DNA from: an archaeon
Lineage (GTDB): Archaea > EX4484-52 > WAPT01
DNA length: 59,826 bases
Direction of reading: 5' to 3'
Assembly (NCBI GenBank): GCA_029258795.1
Contig: JAPDKB010000016.1
Coordinates: 1 to 59,826 of the forward strand
Made by a program: the position numbers and the translations under genes. Below the pieces are notes generated by a model. That model saw nothing but the letters and a program-made list of their open reading frames with translations, had not been told where the DNA came from and did not search any database. Shown here in pieces: positions 398 through 9,361 of this stretch. The stretch's first letter is position 1. The number at the start of each line of letters is the position of its first letter.

Positions 398-408
398 ATT
401 TATATAAA
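398..408 (+). promoter_or_regulatory. TATA-like box upstream of the KaiC-GTPase gene
   Basis: TTTATATAAAA lies just after the V4R stop codon and about 57 bases before the ATG at 461. That leaves room for a short leader carrying the GAGAGGGTGATG ribosome binding site (444-455). It suggests the downstream gene can be transcribed separately from the V4R gene. Confidence 0.6.
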
Positions 409-460
409 ACTGAATTCCCATAATATAAGAGTAGAAGATGCTCAGAGAGGGTGATGTGAG

Positions 461-1603
461 ATGAAAATAACCACGAGCATACCAAAACTGGACGAAATAC
501 TAGAGGGTGGGCTTCCAGTACATGCGAATGTTCTTCTGTTTGCTGACCCGCTTGCGGATGCTGCGACATTCGCTCAGCAGATCCTATCCCACAGAATAGA
601 TGAGGAAGATGTAGGTATATACCTCGTAACCAACAAGCTTCCGAAAGATGTTGAGAACAACATGTACAAACACGGATTCAACACCAATGGTATAGTGTTT
701 ATAGATGGTCTCTCCTACACTTTGAAAAGAAAGAGTGACTCAAAATACGTGATAGACGAAGTAATTACAAGCGGTAAGCCTGCATGGGAGAGAGCAAAGG
801 AACTGTGGATGAAAGCCATCCAGGAAGAGAAAGGGCAGAAATTAGCGGTGTGGGATTGTTTGGAGACGTTCATGGGTTTTGTGGACGAAATAATAGATTT
901 TGTAAATGAGGTTAAGAAGTTGAATGAAGAAAACAAAACAACCTCACTATTCATACTGACGAATTGGGGTTACGATCCCAAAGATATAGAAAGAATAAAG
1001 GAGGCTTTCGATTTGGTGATAGACCTTGCTACAGTCTCCAAGAAACTGATGTACCTTAACTATTACAAAGTCAATCATAAACCAGCAATACCATTCAAAA
1101 TAACTTTAACCGGAGTCACACTTTATATACCAAAGATTCTCATCACCGGTCCATACAACGCAGGAAAATCCACACTTGTTAAACAGCTGTCCGAAACTGC
1201 GGTCAGCATAGACAGGCTCGGTACAACAATAGCGTTGGACCACGGATATGTGGAGAAGAAGGGATTTGCATGTAACATATTCGGTACACCGGGTCAGGAG
1301 AGATTCGACTGGATAATGGAAGTGTTGTCAAAGGATGTGTGGGGTGTGATATTAATAGTGGATTCCACAAAACCGGAATCATTCCCGCGAGCGCTTGAAA
1401 TGCTTGAAAAAGTGAAATCTGAGAACATACCGTTCATAGTGTTTGCTAATAAACAGGACGTGGAGGGAGCGTTGCCTCCTGAAGAAGTGAAGGAAAGATT
1501 GGGTGTGCCGATTGTTGTTGGTGGATCAGCAAAAACAGGAGAGAATACTGAAAAAGCTTTGTTAACACTGTTTGAAGAAATACTGAAAAGAAGGGTGTTT
1601 TAA
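461..1603 (+). CDS. Degenerate KaiC/RecA-like domain fused to a small Ras-like GTPase
   Basis: Residues 1-200 follow the KaiC pattern (IPKLDEILEGGLP near the start, NNMYKHGF near 67-74) and align without difficulty to the intact KaiC protein encoded at 2061-2738. Where that paralogue has the P-loop GIPGAGKTT, this one has ADPLADAAT, so the ATPase site is lost. Residues 223-378 are a small GTPase: G1 is GPYNAGKS (230-237), G3 is GTPGQE (275-280), with Gly where Ras has Asp, a form known from the COG2229 group. G4 is NKQD (330-333) and G5 is SAK (356-358). The ATG at 461 has a strong GAGAGGGTGATG site. A Roadblock gene follows, and Roadblock proteins are known partners and regulators of MglA/Rag-type GTPases. 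The fusion is clear; its cellular role is not known. Confidence 0.85.
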   Translation: MKITTSIPKLDEILEGGLPVHANVLLFADPLADAATFAQQILSHRIDEEDVGIYLVTNKLPKDVENNMYKHGFNTNGIVFIDGLSYTLKRKSDSKYVIDEVITSGKPAWERAKELWMKAIQEEKGQKLAVWDCLETFMGFVDEIIDFVNEVKKLNEENKTTSLFILTNWGYDPKDIERIKEAFDLVIDLATVSKKLMYLNYYKVNHKPAIPFKITLTGVTLYIPKILITGPYNAGKSTLVKQLSETAVSIDRLGTTIALDHGYVEKKGFACNIFGTPGQERFDWIMEVLSKDVWGVILIVDSTKPESFPRALEMLEKVKSENIPFIVFANKQDVEGALPPEEVKERLGVPIVVGGSAKTGENTEKALLTLFEEILKRRVF

Positions 1604-1629
1604 ACACCCTTTCAACAGCATTCCATAAA

Positions 1630-1639
1630 CTTTATATAG
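1630..1639 (+). promoter_or_regulatory. TATA-like box upstream of the Roadblock gene
   Basis: CTTTATATAG in the 93-base gap between the GTPase and Roadblock genes. It is about 62 bases before the ATG at 1697, which is preceded by AGGAGGGTG. The Roadblock gene therefore probably has its own promoter, consistent with the partner being needed in different amounts from the GTPase. Confidence 0.6.
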
Positions 1640-1696
1640 TAAAAAACCCAAAATGAAATCCGGTTATGATAAAAAAGTTAAGGAGGGTGTGGAAAG

Positions 1697-2071
1697 ATGC
1701 CTAAAGAAGAGGAACTTAAGGAAGCTGTCGGAGATCTGAAAAATGTTTCCGGAGTAGTTGGAAATGCAGTGGTTACACCAGATGGTCTGCTGATATTCTC
1801 AGACTTGCCGGACACCGTGAACAAGAGAGCACTGGCTGCGATGGCAGCAGCTATAGTGGGTACAGGAATGCAGGTTACCAAGGAATTGAACATCGGGACA
1901 CTGAGCCAAGTGATGGTAGAAGCGCAGGAAGGTAAGTTCATATCCATTAGCGTTGGTACGGATGCCGACTCACCCATCCTGTCAACGCTGGTTGAACCAA
2001 AAGCAAACCTTGGTCTCGTGCTTCTGGAGATGGAAAAAGCAGCCAAAAAAATCCAGAAAATCATGGCGTGA
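1697..2071 (+). CDS. Roadblock/LC7 domain protein
   Basis: A 124-residue single-domain Roadblock/LC7 protein. Visible family features are the N-terminal helix, the GVVGNAVVTPDGLLIFSDLP hairpin (19-38), an alanine-rich central helix (about 45-57) and the Q-V-M-V-E-A-Q-E-G-K-F strand region near 70-81, followed by a C-terminal helix. These proteins dimerise and act as scaffolds or GAP-like regulators for small GTPases (MglB with MglA, LAMTOR with Rag). The position right after a GTPase fusion fits that role. The AGGAGGGTG site at 1681-1689 fixes the start. Its 3' end overlaps the convergent KaiC gene by 11 bases. Confidence 0.85.
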   Translation: MPKEEELKEAVGDLKNVSGVVGNAVVTPDGLLIFSDLPDTVNKRALAAMAAAIVGTGMQVTKELNIGTLSQVMVEAQEGKFISISVGTDADSPILSTLVEPKANLGLVLLEMEKAAKKIQKIMA

Positions 2072-2738
2072 TTTCTATCCCTTTTTCACTTATTTTGAAG
2101 TTGAGATTTACTGGTAGTGTTTTGGTTTCTTTCATTCTATTTATTTTGATTGTTCTCTTATCACCTTCCATAGAGAAGTAAATCGTACCGTCGGTAAGGC
2201 TGTTAAGAGCAGTTATTACATCAGGCGTGTGCATTCCCTCTTCCACAGTTATCAACTCTGTTATGCCCACACCTTTTAGACGAGCTGAGAGCATCGATAT
2301 AAACCTGAGACACAGGTCCTTGGGGACGAATAGAAACATGGTGGATATGGAATCTACAACAACTCTCCTAACATTCTGATTTTTCATCTCCGTAAGCGCT
2401 TTCGTTATGGCTATCGTGAAATTGGTAAGATTAGCAGGATTCACAACATCCTTCCCTTCTTCCTTACCCATCTGCCATGAGTAAGCATCTATAAAGCGTA
2501 ATGGCTTGCCTGAAACATCCCATCCAAAAGATTTCATGTTATTGATTACCTCATCAGGGGCTGCATTGAGAGTTATGTAAATCGCTCCTTCTCCATTTTT
2601 AAGACCTTCATATATGAACTGGTTACAGAATGTTGTTTTACCCGCACCAGGAATACCTATCAATAAAATGGATGCTCTCTCGGGTAATCCTCCTTCCAGA
2701 GCTTCATCGAATTTAGGGATGCCTGTTGGTACTCTCAT
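2061..2738 (-). CDS. KaiC-like RecA-superfamily ATPase, single domain
   Basis: A 225-residue one-domain KaiC protein. The Walker A motif GIPGAGKTT is at 28-36 and the Walker B strand RRVVVDSIST at 124-133, with Asp129. Archaeal single-domain KaiC proteins are putative signalling ATPases often found near taxis or regulatory genes. The gene is convergent with the Roadblock gene. The start has an AAGGTGGTG site and a minus-strand TATA box at 2771-2782. It is the intact paralogue of the degenerate domain encoded at 461-1603: both carry IPK-x-DE-x-LEGGLP and a matching NNM-x2-x-GF segment, so the two may pair as an active/inactive dimer (inference). Confidence 0.85.
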   Translation of the reverse strand: MRVPTGIPKFDEALEGGLPERASILLIGIPGAGKTTFCNQFIYEGLKNGEGAIYITLNAAPDEVINNMKSFGWDVSGKPLRFIDAYSWQMGKEEGKDVVNPANLTNFTIAITKALTEMKNQNVRRVVVDSISTMFLFVPKDLCLRFISMLSARLKGVGITELITVEEGMHTPDVITALNSLTDGTIYFSMEGDKRTIKINRMKETKTLPVNLNFKISEKGIEITP

Positions 2739-6590: not shown

Positions 6591-7937
6591 ATGTATGCTA
6601 AAGAAATAATCGAAGTTCTGAAAAAAGCGGGGGCATCTGAAGGAGATTTCATCAGAGTAATGCTCAGAGATGGCTGTGTTCGTGAAGGAATTCTCATGCC
6701 CCGTTCCGAGTTCGGAAACGAAAAATGTCTGGTCATCAAGTTAAAGAATGGTTATAACATAGGGATTTCTGCCAAAAAAATAAAGAGTGTGGAAGTTATC
6801 GAAAAAAGAAAAAAGAAAGATACCATACCACAAAGAAAACCATCAAAGACAAAAGGAGGGAAAAAGCCAAAAGTTGTTATCCTGCACACAGGAGGGACGA
6901 TAGCTTCGAGAGTGGATTACGAAACGGGTGGTGTTAAAGCCCTATTTTCTCCTGAAGAGCTGCTTGACCTATTTCCTGAGATGGAAAAGTATGCGTTGAT
7001 CGATTCAAAACTTATAGCCAACGCTCTCAGCGAGAACCTGCGTTTTGGACATTACAACAAGATGATAGATGCCATTGAGAAGGAAATAAAAAAAGGTGTG
7101 GATGGCATCATACTGACTCACGGGACTGATACTATGGCTTACACCGCTGCAGCCATTGCGTTTGCTTTTGAAAACCTACCCGTTCCCGTGATTTTGGTTG
7201 GGGCGCAGCGCAGCTCCGATAGACCGAGCAGCGATGCTGCCATGAACCTCATCTCGGCTTTGCAGTTCATAACCACCACTGATTTTTGCGATGTAGGTAT
7301 ATGCATGCACGCAACAACAAGCGATGACTACTGCCACATACTGCCAGCTTGCAAAACAAGAAAGATGCACACATCAGCAAGATACGCTTTTCAAGCAATA
7401 AACGCTAAGCCATATGCTAAAGTGTGGTGGAAGGAGGAGAGGGTGGAATTCTTACAGGACGATTATGTTAGGAAGAGTGATGTGAAGGGCAAGCTCGTGG
7501 TCAGAAAGTTCAGGGAAGATATTAAGGTGGGATTGCTGAAGGCACACCCCCACCTCATGCCGGAGGAGGTGCTTGCTTACCAGGGTTTTGATGGAATGGT
7601 GATAGAGGGTACAGGGCTGGGACATATTGGAATAGAGTCCTTTGATGAGTTAAGCAAGGAGAATGAGGAGGTCATGAAAGCTCTGAAAAAGGTGATCGAA
7701 AGCGGAACCATCGTTGTTATGACCTCTCAATGTCTTTATGGCAGGGTGAACATGAACGTGTACAGCACGGGAAGAAAGCTGCTGAAGATGGGCGTGCTTG
7801 GCAATCTCACGGACATGCTCCCGGAGGTTGCCTTTGTGAAGCTCGCCTGGCTCCTCAGCAACTTCAAAAAGGATGAAATTCCGAAGCTCTGGCACACGAA
7901 TCTTCGGGGAGAAATCTCTGACAGGACGTTAGAGTGA
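6591..7937 (+). CDS. gatD: Glutamyl-tRNA(Gln) amidotransferase subunit D
   Basis: A 448-residue GatD, the asparaginase-like subunit that releases ammonia from glutamine or asparagine for GatE. An N-terminal small beta domain (1-75) and a lysine-rich linker (about 71-93) lead into the asparaginase fold. There the catalytic Thr sits in GGTIAS (101-106) and the second motif is THGTDTMAY. The C-terminal MTSQCLYGRVNMNVYSTG segment is also typical. The start is probably leaderless from the TTTAAA at 6561-6566. Many archaea have gatD next to gatE; here they are split and divergent. Confidence 0.95.
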   Translation: MYAKEIIEVLKKAGASEGDFIRVMLRDGCVREGILMPRSEFGNEKCLVIKLKNGYNIGISAKKIKSVEVIEKRKKKDTIPQRKPSKTKGGKKPKVVILHTGGTIASRVDYETGGVKALFSPEELLDLFPEMEKYALIDSKLIANALSENLRFGHYNKMIDAIEKEIKKGVDGIILTHGTDTMAYTAAAIAFAFENLPVPVILVGAQRSSDRPSSDAAMNLISALQFITTTDFCDVGICMHATTSDDYCHILPACKTRKMHTSARYAFQAINAKPYAKVWWKEERVEFLQDDYVRKSDVKGKLVVRKFREDIKVGLLKAHPHLMPEEVLAYQGFDGMVIEGTGLGHIGIESFDELSKENEEVMKALKKVIESGTIVVMTSQCLYGRVNMNVYSTGRKLLKMGVLGNLTDMLPEVAFVKLAWLLSNFKKDEIPKLWHTNLRGEISDRTLE

Positions 7938-7942
7938 TGAAT

Positions 7943-9361
7943 TCAGGACAGCGCTTCATCAACATACTTTTTGTATGCTGTGTAAAGAGCTTGTTTTGAT
8001 ACGCCAGTGTCCACATTTTCAAAGCCAAATCTGTGGCTCAAATCCTTCTCCTCGAGATATGAGTCCAGCACGATTCCCTCTTTACTTGCCACCTTCTTCC
8101 AAGCTGAATAGTTCATACCGTATTTGTGGGCTTTCAATAAAAGTTCACCTATCTTTTCATCACCAATACTGAGAATTGCCTGCAAATGAGCCCGTTTGGG
8201 GTTTGTTAGGTGTACCATAACACCCATTTTTCTCAAACTTCTCGCTATCGTCATGTTCTTTCGAGAAAGAGATTCGATTTCATCGACGGGGGCAAATTGG
8301 AACGGTGTGTGTGGCTTGGGCACAAAAATGGAGAATGTGCATTTAATATAGATTCCTTTTATTGATGTGCAGTCCTTCACCAGCTTAACCACATCGCGTA
8401 TATCCTCCTCTCTTTCGTAAGGAATACCTACCATAAAATACAGCTTAACAGTTCTAACTCCATTTTTCTTTGCCATCTTTACAGCTTGTAACACATCATC
8501 ATCGCTAAAATTCTTTCCCACAAGGTTTCTCAACCGCTCGGTGGTTTCTGGCGCGATGGTCAGAATTCTCGGCTTCACTTCCTTCAAAAAATCGCGAAAC
8601 TCAAGCACATCCCTAACATGGAAGGATGGGGTTGCTACATCGAACTTGCGGGAGCGCAAATAACGATATATCTCTGGGAGTTCTGGGTGAGAGAAGATAT
8701 CTGAGCCCACAAGCATTATCTTTCTATACCTGTTTTTGGGCACTCTGCTCATTATTAACTTGACATTATCCAGAGTTCTGTAACGGCATGTACCTCTCGT
8801 CCAACCGATCAGGCAGAATTTACACTTGTTCCTGCATCCTCTCTGCACCTCCAGAAAGAACTCCTCATCACTTCCGCTTTCTGCAGGGTGTCTATCTCCC
8901 AACAACTTGCACAGCGCGACTTTTACTTTTTCTTTTCCCTTTTTCCACACATGCTCTGATCTCTCTATCACCTGCTCAACACCGTAATTTTTCATCTCAT
9001 CGAAAAAAATTTCGCCATCTCCAATGAAAAACGCGTCGATAATGGAGGAAAGTGGGGCAGGATTCACCACCACAGGCCCGCCCATGATGATAAAGGGCTG
9101 TTTTTCGTTGTTTTCAGTGCTCTTCCCCAACGAAAAACCTGCTTTCTCCAGAATTTCAATGAGGTGGAGGTAATCATTTTCATAGTGACAGCTTATCAGT
9201 ATCATATCGTGCTTTTTTAATTCGGAAAGCTCGGTTGAATCGAGAAAATAGAACCTGCTCCTTAATCCCATCCTCATGAGTTCATCTCTCAGAAAGTAGA
9301 TGGAAAGTGCTTTTTCTCCCACCTTTCTTCTGTTAGGATAAATTATGGCTACATTTTCCAT
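7943..9361 (-). CDS. Radical SAM protein with N-terminal B12-binding-like domain
   Basis: A 472-residue COG1032-type protein. Residues 1-125 resemble a cobalamin-binding Rossmann domain: it begins VAIIYPN and contains IIMGGPVVVNPAPL and FFIGDGE, without an obvious DxHxxG motif. The radical SAM core has CRNKCKFC (C176, C180, C183), and the later VKLYFMVGIPYEREEDI segment is typical of the core's last strands. The C-terminal region (about 380-472) is unassigned. The reaction is unknown; relatives include methylthiotransferase-like and methyltransferase enzymes. The gene follows the pilin-like run by 28 bases on the same strand and converges on gatD with a 5-base gap. Confidence 0.75.
   Translation of the reverse strand: MENVAIIYPNRRKVGEKALSIYFLRDELMRMGLRSRFYFLDSTELSELKKHDMILISCHYENDYLHLIEILEKAGFSLGKSTENNEKQPFIIMGGPVVVNPAPLSSIIDAFFIGDGEIFFDEMKNYGVEQVIERSEHVWKKGKEKVKVALCKLLGDRHPAESGSDEEFFLEVQRGCRNKCKFCLIGWTRGTCRYRTLDNVKLIMSRVPKNRYRKIMLVGSDIFSHPELPEIYRYLRSRKFDVATPSFHVRDVLEFRDFLKEVKPRILTIAPETTERLRNLVGKNFSDDDVLQAVKMAKKNGVRTVKLYFMVGIPYEREEDIRDVVKLVKDCTSIKGIYIKCTFSIFVPKPHTPFQFAPVDEIESLSRKNMTIARSLRKMGVMVHLTNPKRAHLQAILSIGDEKIGELLLKAHKYGMNYSAWKKVASKEGIVLDSYLEEKDLSHRFGFENVDTGVSKQALYTAYKKYVDEALS

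Follow-up and report, generated by a model that had tools for sequence, protein, structure and literature searches.

A degenerate KaiC protein fused to a putative MglA-type GTPase: a probable Roadblock-coupled signalling module in at least six archaeal phyla

The window analysed here is the whole 59,826-nucleotide stretch of contig JAPDKB010000016.1 from an archaeal genome assembly (GCA_029258795.1). Near its start, the plus-strand gene at 461-1603 encodes a 380-residue protein in which a pseudo-KaiC domain (residues 1 to about 219) is joined without a linker to a putative MglA-type small GTPase (about 220-380), as delimited by Pfam and NCBIfam matches and an AlphaFold model. It is followed by a plus-strand Roadblock/LC7 gene (1697-2071; 124 residues), the product of which is a probable MglB-type GTPase partner, and by a minus-strand gene (2061-2738; 225 residues) for a separate KaiC-family protein. 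The KaiC half of the fusion matches PF06745 over residues 4-193 (38.6 bits against a cut-off of 26.6). The GTPase half matches over residues 223-375, with both Arf (E = 3e-14) and Ras (E = 3e-13) in Pfam and small_GTP in NCBIfam (73.1 against 42.5). The second product matches Robl_LC7 (PF03259; E = 8e-12, 45.2 bits against 23) and the third a KaiC domain (E = 7e-42), in agreement with the three reading frames and domains given in the earlier note. The Roadblock gene and the separate KaiC gene are convergent and overlap by 11 bp; the latter lies on the strand opposite the fusion in the window genus and shares no operon with it. TATA-like elements precede both the fusion gene (TTTATATAAAA, 399-409, plus strand) and the Roadblock gene (TTTATATAGT, 1631-1640, plus strand). 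Their putative function, read from the sequence, suggests that these two genes may be transcribed separately in this genus. Upstream, a plus-strand reading frame at 1-393 carries a genuine V4R domain (E = 3.7e-17). It begins at base 1 of the contig, is possibly truncated and was judged, from comparison with sister species, to lie outside the module.

The central observation of the earlier note, a KaiC domain with a replaced P-loop joined to a complete GTPase, was confirmed. The Walker A position of the fusion reads ADPLADAAT (residues 28-36; 542-568, plus strand) where the neighbouring KaiC has GIPGAGKTT, and none of 39 aligned fusions keeps an intact KaiC P-loop. These homologues are 380-415 residues long, with the GTPase as the C-terminal half. 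The Lys-x-Arg finger has also been lost. On the grounds of sequence or model, the KaiC half is unable to form a normal ATP site. Its divergence across the 39 fusions is more than double that of the GTPase half, as would be expected if catalysis had been dropped. In the single-chain model of the fusion (pLDDT 90.3, pTM 0.85), for which KaiC-fold matches lead a structure search of the PDB, one continuous strand (residues 218-229) runs from the KaiC domain into beta-1 of the GTPase and contains an invariant Pro224-Lys225 pair. Since the halves share this strand, the model predicts that movement in one should pass to the other. The pseudo-KaiC halves form a single clade (100/100), which also includes two lone pseudo-KaiCs (L089:1105-1839 and L096:1492-2190). 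Neither of these has a GTPase, or a Roadblock gene within about 1.5 kb, and both have probably lost their GTPase.

The GTPase half is complete. Its G1 P-loop (GPYNAGKS, residues 230-237; 1148-1171, plus strand) is present in all 39 aligned fusions, as is a GTPGQ G3 motif in which Gly takes the place of the usual Asp (residues 275-279; 1283-1297, plus strand). Beside the G2 Thr, a second Thr replaces the Arg of MglA group 1 in 35 of the 39, the window included (TT), and the remaining four read GT. The G4 motif is more variable: it is ANKQD in the window, NKxN or NFQN in 10 of the 39 rows, and ANFQN (fusion residues 329-333 in window numbering) in the G091 phylum (L035, L100-L104). In the ANFQN lineages, GTP specificity is unsure and nucleotide specificity may be altered. 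MglA groups 2-5 have been defined by GTPGQ together with a Thr replacing the Arg finger; their partners are Roadblock/MglB proteins, and the coupled MglB carries an Asp-Gly pair (Wuichet and Sogaard-Andersen, PMC4316618). The window carries all three features. MglA groups 2-5 and the MglA/MglB systems of Myxococcus and Thermus are among its closest known counterparts, sharing with it a Roadblock gene next to the GTPase gene and a Roadblock protein with a model close to MglB. The window differs in that the GTPase is fused to a pseudo-KaiC, whereas groups 2-5 consist of single-domain small GTPases. Among the matches listed, the closest plasmid-borne ones are GTPases of Streptomyces, Deinococcus and Thermus, at 33-36% identity. 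The GTPase is classed here as MglA-type by its motifs, partner gene and best matches.

The Roadblock protein fits this assignment. The residue pair predicted to contact the GTPase is Asp-Gly in 21, Glu-Gly in 10 and Asn-Gly in one of 32 Roadblock proteins, with Asp-Gly in the window. The pairing of a GTPase with Roadblock in the earlier note is supported, the GTPase having the GTPGQ motif and the Roadblock protein the matching Asp/Glu-Gly pair. A single-chain model of the Roadblock protein (pLDDT 92.7) was shown by Foldseek to match MglB (TM about 0.85), including MglB in MglA-MglB complexes, and also archaeal Roadblock proteins, including Asgard Roadblock homodimers. Correlation of evolutionary distances singled out no interface, the values for Roadblock being equal against the GTPase half and the KaiC half. 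At one locus, in genome G137 (L043:7888-8646, minus strand), a pilin-like reading frame that lacks its stop runs in frame into the Roadblock reading frame to give 252 residues; this may be a true fusion, a lost stop or a sequence error.

The separate KaiC had been taken in the earlier note for an active enzyme, and this is not supported by its motifs. It keeps Walker A (GIPGAGKTT, residues 28-36; 2631-2657, minus strand) and Walker B (RVVVDS), but where canonical KaiCs of the same genome keep Glu (for example TLEE or SLEE), at the tip of strand WB+1, it reads TLNAAP. The lost pair is Asn-Ala at residues 58-59 (2562-2567, minus strand). In ATPases of the RecA/F1 class, this Glu is the catalytic residue (PMC9599734). 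As the catalytic glutamates of canonical KaiCs are absent, an active ATPase was rejected, and the protein probably binds ATP without turnover. In this it would resemble the KaiC-like ArlH, which stimulates ArlI and binds ATP but does not hydrolyse it (PMC8978795), although the window protein scores 57.8 bits against an ArlH equivalog cut-off of 215 (NCBIfam). The finger position is R-x-K in the window KaiC, R-x-R in the sister species and K-x-R in the canonical KaiCs of the same genome. Among the adjacent partner KaiCs compared, all but one have lost the catalytic Glu, with Asp or Asn as the usual replacement; several of them, in some other phyla, lack the Walker A P-loop too. In a tree, adjacent KaiCs fall mostly outside the clade of canonical KaiCs.

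The fusion is not confined to the window. Profile searches of six phyla, together with a sample of 198 genomes around the window genome, recovered 48 loci with a full-length fusion, spread over at least six phyla of archaea; within that sample, 19 of the 198 genomes hold a full-length relative. The fusion occurs in three of the 34 genomes of the window's phylum, all in the window genus. It was found in 18 of 152 genomes (19 loci) of a methanogen-like phylum, inferred from gene content to be Methanobacteriota, in which genome G337 has two complete copies of the cluster (L124 and L125). The remaining phyla contributed 12 full-length fusions among 29 (G067 phylum), 5 among 147 sampled (the phylum of G110 and G182), three in 10 (G132 phylum) and six in 28 (G091 phylum). 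The fusion tree mostly tracks phylum, and in it the window genus branches next to the G091 group (100/97). Members of the G132 phylum are dispersed over the tree, and its deep branching order is uncertain owing to long branches. Spread by virus or plasmid was considered and rejected: viral contigs held no relative, and no plasmid record covered the fusion.

The flanks of these loci were scanned with profiles built from the fusion loci themselves, counting a KaiC gene as adjacent if it neighboured either the fusion or the Roadblock gene. A Roadblock gene directly adjoins the fusion in 47 of the 48 loci. Another KaiC gene adjoins in 32, recurring in all six phyla, and is missing in 16. In all 19 methanogen-like loci, both are present in tight operons of overlapping or gapless genes, as in L042 (Roadblock 6613-6993, fusion 6990-8171, KaiC 8172-8867). 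Most loci of the G067 and G091 phyla have no adjacent KaiC. The exception for Roadblock is G110, where its place beside the fusion is taken by a HAMP protein, which lies with a KaiC across the contig origin. A single KaiC neighbour might have arisen by chance in a genome with about 14 KaiC genes, but recurrence in six phyla excludes this for the cluster. The near-constant core is thus two genes, the putative MglA-type GTPase on a pseudo-KaiC and its probable MglB-type Roadblock, with the separate KaiC as an optional member, and not the four-part switch of the earlier note. That interpretation is partly supported; the reach of the arrangement is wider than had been thought. Other associations were also seen in these searches. 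GTPase-only matches from other archaea (35-44% identity) had no Roadblock or KaiC gene within 1.5 kb and were left out. Elsewhere in the archaea, standalone relatives of the GTPase (L023-L026; 39-44% identity) have a TPR or TPR-like protein next to them, reminiscent of the TPR gene in the methanogen-like operons. In the G067 phylum, a DUF2226-type protein adjoins Roadblock (L037:1-463), as does a similar reading frame at another locus (L128:8118-8642).

Taken together, the cluster is probably a widespread and uncharacterised archaeal signalling module, and its best explanation is a KaiC-scaffolded switch of MglA/MglB type, with a platform of ATP-holding KaiC and a membrane machine as output. 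The chances that this explanation is right or wrong are about equal. A Roadblock homodimer would bind the switches of the GTPase and act as its GAP or as a co-effector, in the manner of MglB with MglA. Like ArlH, the separate KaiC would hold ATP without turnover and form a ring or platform. On this platform, or on another KaiC where none is adjacent, the pseudo-KaiC would dock the GTPase, which energy or phosphorylation state would thereby gate. The output would probably be a membrane machine, for which type IV pili or adhesion filaments are the best candidates where the operon has pilin-like genes. A fuller version is possible but rather doubtful: an ancient module in which an ATP-loaded, non-hydrolysing KaiC platform docks the pseudo-KaiC, sets the state of the rigidly fused GTPase with Roadblock as its GAP, and controls pili or another envelope machine. 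The absence of an adjacent KaiC in 16 of the 48 loci and of a P-loop in several partners indicates that such an ATP platform is not universal.

The nature of the output has its own candidate reading, compatible with the KaiC-scaffolded switch, in which the GTPase cycle would govern the assembly or position of type IV pili like MglA/MglB of Myxococcus. In every methanogen-like locus with enough flank, two short reading frames directly upstream encode a pilin-like leader and a hydrophobic stretch (for example the class-III-type KAQISIEYMFLMGF, and KAQISIEYMFLMGFTLITTILVF), and a TPR protein gene lies downstream. Several pilin-like reading frames also lie beside the fusion in G110, and in family f78 a similar small protein is encoded there. 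From elsewhere, Roadblock proteins of arCOG02603 and KaiC families have been found in archaeal type IV pilus loci (PMC4858521), and MglA is reported to act on type IV pili in Myxococcus (PMC7668184). Against this, the pilin-like reading frames have no Pfam match and are identified by the shape of their leader, and in four of the six phyla, the window genus included, the fusion had no pilin-like neighbour. Co-occurrence with type IV pilus ATPases was discarded as uninformative, these being near-universal (present in 79 of 80 tested genomes, fusion carriers and others alike). The link in two of six phyla supports a pilus function without proving it, and the reading falls somewhat short of an even chance. 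In the window genome (G000), two other KaiC genes adjoin T2SSE/PilB-type ATPase genes (C5:6368-8280 and C2:30989-33858), a separate association of KaiC with pili.

The KaiC-scaffolded switch has a simpler rival, in which the pseudo-KaiC is a targeting or dimerisation domain that never enters a KaiC ring, the unit is the fusion with Roadblock, and the KaiC genes nearby stem from the family's general expansion in archaea. Adjacency is indeed far less regular for KaiC than for Roadblock (32 against 47 of the 48 loci), the window genome holds about 14 KaiC genes, and the pseudo-KaiC, devoid of both P-loop and finger residues, may not sit in a ring at all. A dedicated partner is nevertheless suggested by adjacent KaiCs in all six phyla that mostly lie outside the canonical clade and share the loss of Glu, and the simpler account is on balance improbable.

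The V4R gene upstream of the fusion could instead mark a four-part pathway from sensor to switch, possibly TRAPP-like. The V4R domain resembles TRAPPC3. The gene lies beside the fusion in the window; in G344 (L090) it adjoins Roadblock, and in G091 it is found at a distance of about 4 kb. Neither sister species (G001 and G002) has it next to the fusion, the single V4R match of each genome lying elsewhere, and it is absent from nearly all other loci, so that the arrangement is not kept even among species of one genus. With 16 V4R matches in the window genome, which represent either a lineage-specific expansion or an assembly difference, chance adjacency is likely; V4R was rejected as a module member and the pathway is very improbable. 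In G344, the gene follows a second, contig-cut copy of the fusion and a Roadblock gene (L090:404-2145), the only distant recurrence of a directly adjacent V4R. A circadian-type clock, in which KaiC autophosphorylation would drive rhythmic switching of the GTPase, has KaiC homology in its favour and can be dismissed as scarcely credible, both KaiCs being catalytically degenerate and single-domain, with a score of 83.5 bits against a TIGR02655 cut-off of 546 for the two-domain circadian protein.

KaiC proteins have been proposed as archaeal signalling hubs, the outputs of which are mostly unknown. A covalent link from KaiC to a putative MglA-type GTPase with its own Roadblock would provide a concrete and testable output and, if the docking reading is true, would connect this hub directly to Ras-like switches. 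Carriers of the cluster probably include culturable methanogen genera. The archaeal GTPGQ-type GTPases gain a partner and a candidate function, whereas in a 2014 survey of MglA the archaeal Group 4 had no conserved neighbours (PMC4316618). That survey began with short single-domain GTPases, which would explain why a fusion of 380 residues is missing from its discussion.

The fusion architecture was not found described in the literature, although a prior mention in Makarova 2017 (mBio) is possible. Inactivated KaiC fusions are known as a class, and a pseudo-KaiC-GTPase with a Roadblock partner appears to be undescribed. The examples of inactivated KaiC (iKaiC) compared here (Galperin 2018, PMC5847659) likewise join an inactivated KaiC to a signalling domain, but have REC or HalOD1 partners and a narrow range, in contrast to the GTPase and six phyla found here. 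ArlH with ArlI offers the same logic of KaiC-like ATP binding without hydrolysis that regulates another NTPase, predicted in the present case, where the target would be a GTPase and not ArlI. The Streptomyces conservon likewise has a Roadblock gene and an MglA-family (Group 2) GTPase gene as its signalling core (CvnB/CvnD), and Streptomyces GTPases are among the plasmid-borne matches listed for the window GTPase; in place of the KaiC-like partner present here, a histidine kinase and CvnC belong to the conservon. Coupling of Roadblock to a GTPase in archaea is also known from Asgard Rag-like proteins, in which the Roadblock domain is fused to the GTPase, operons are rare and there is no KaiC (PMC10933270). 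The present cluster thus bears on the age of the Roadblock-GTPase partnership. Asgard Roadblock proteins (9jue and 7f8m) are the closest solved structures to the Roadblock protein of the window.
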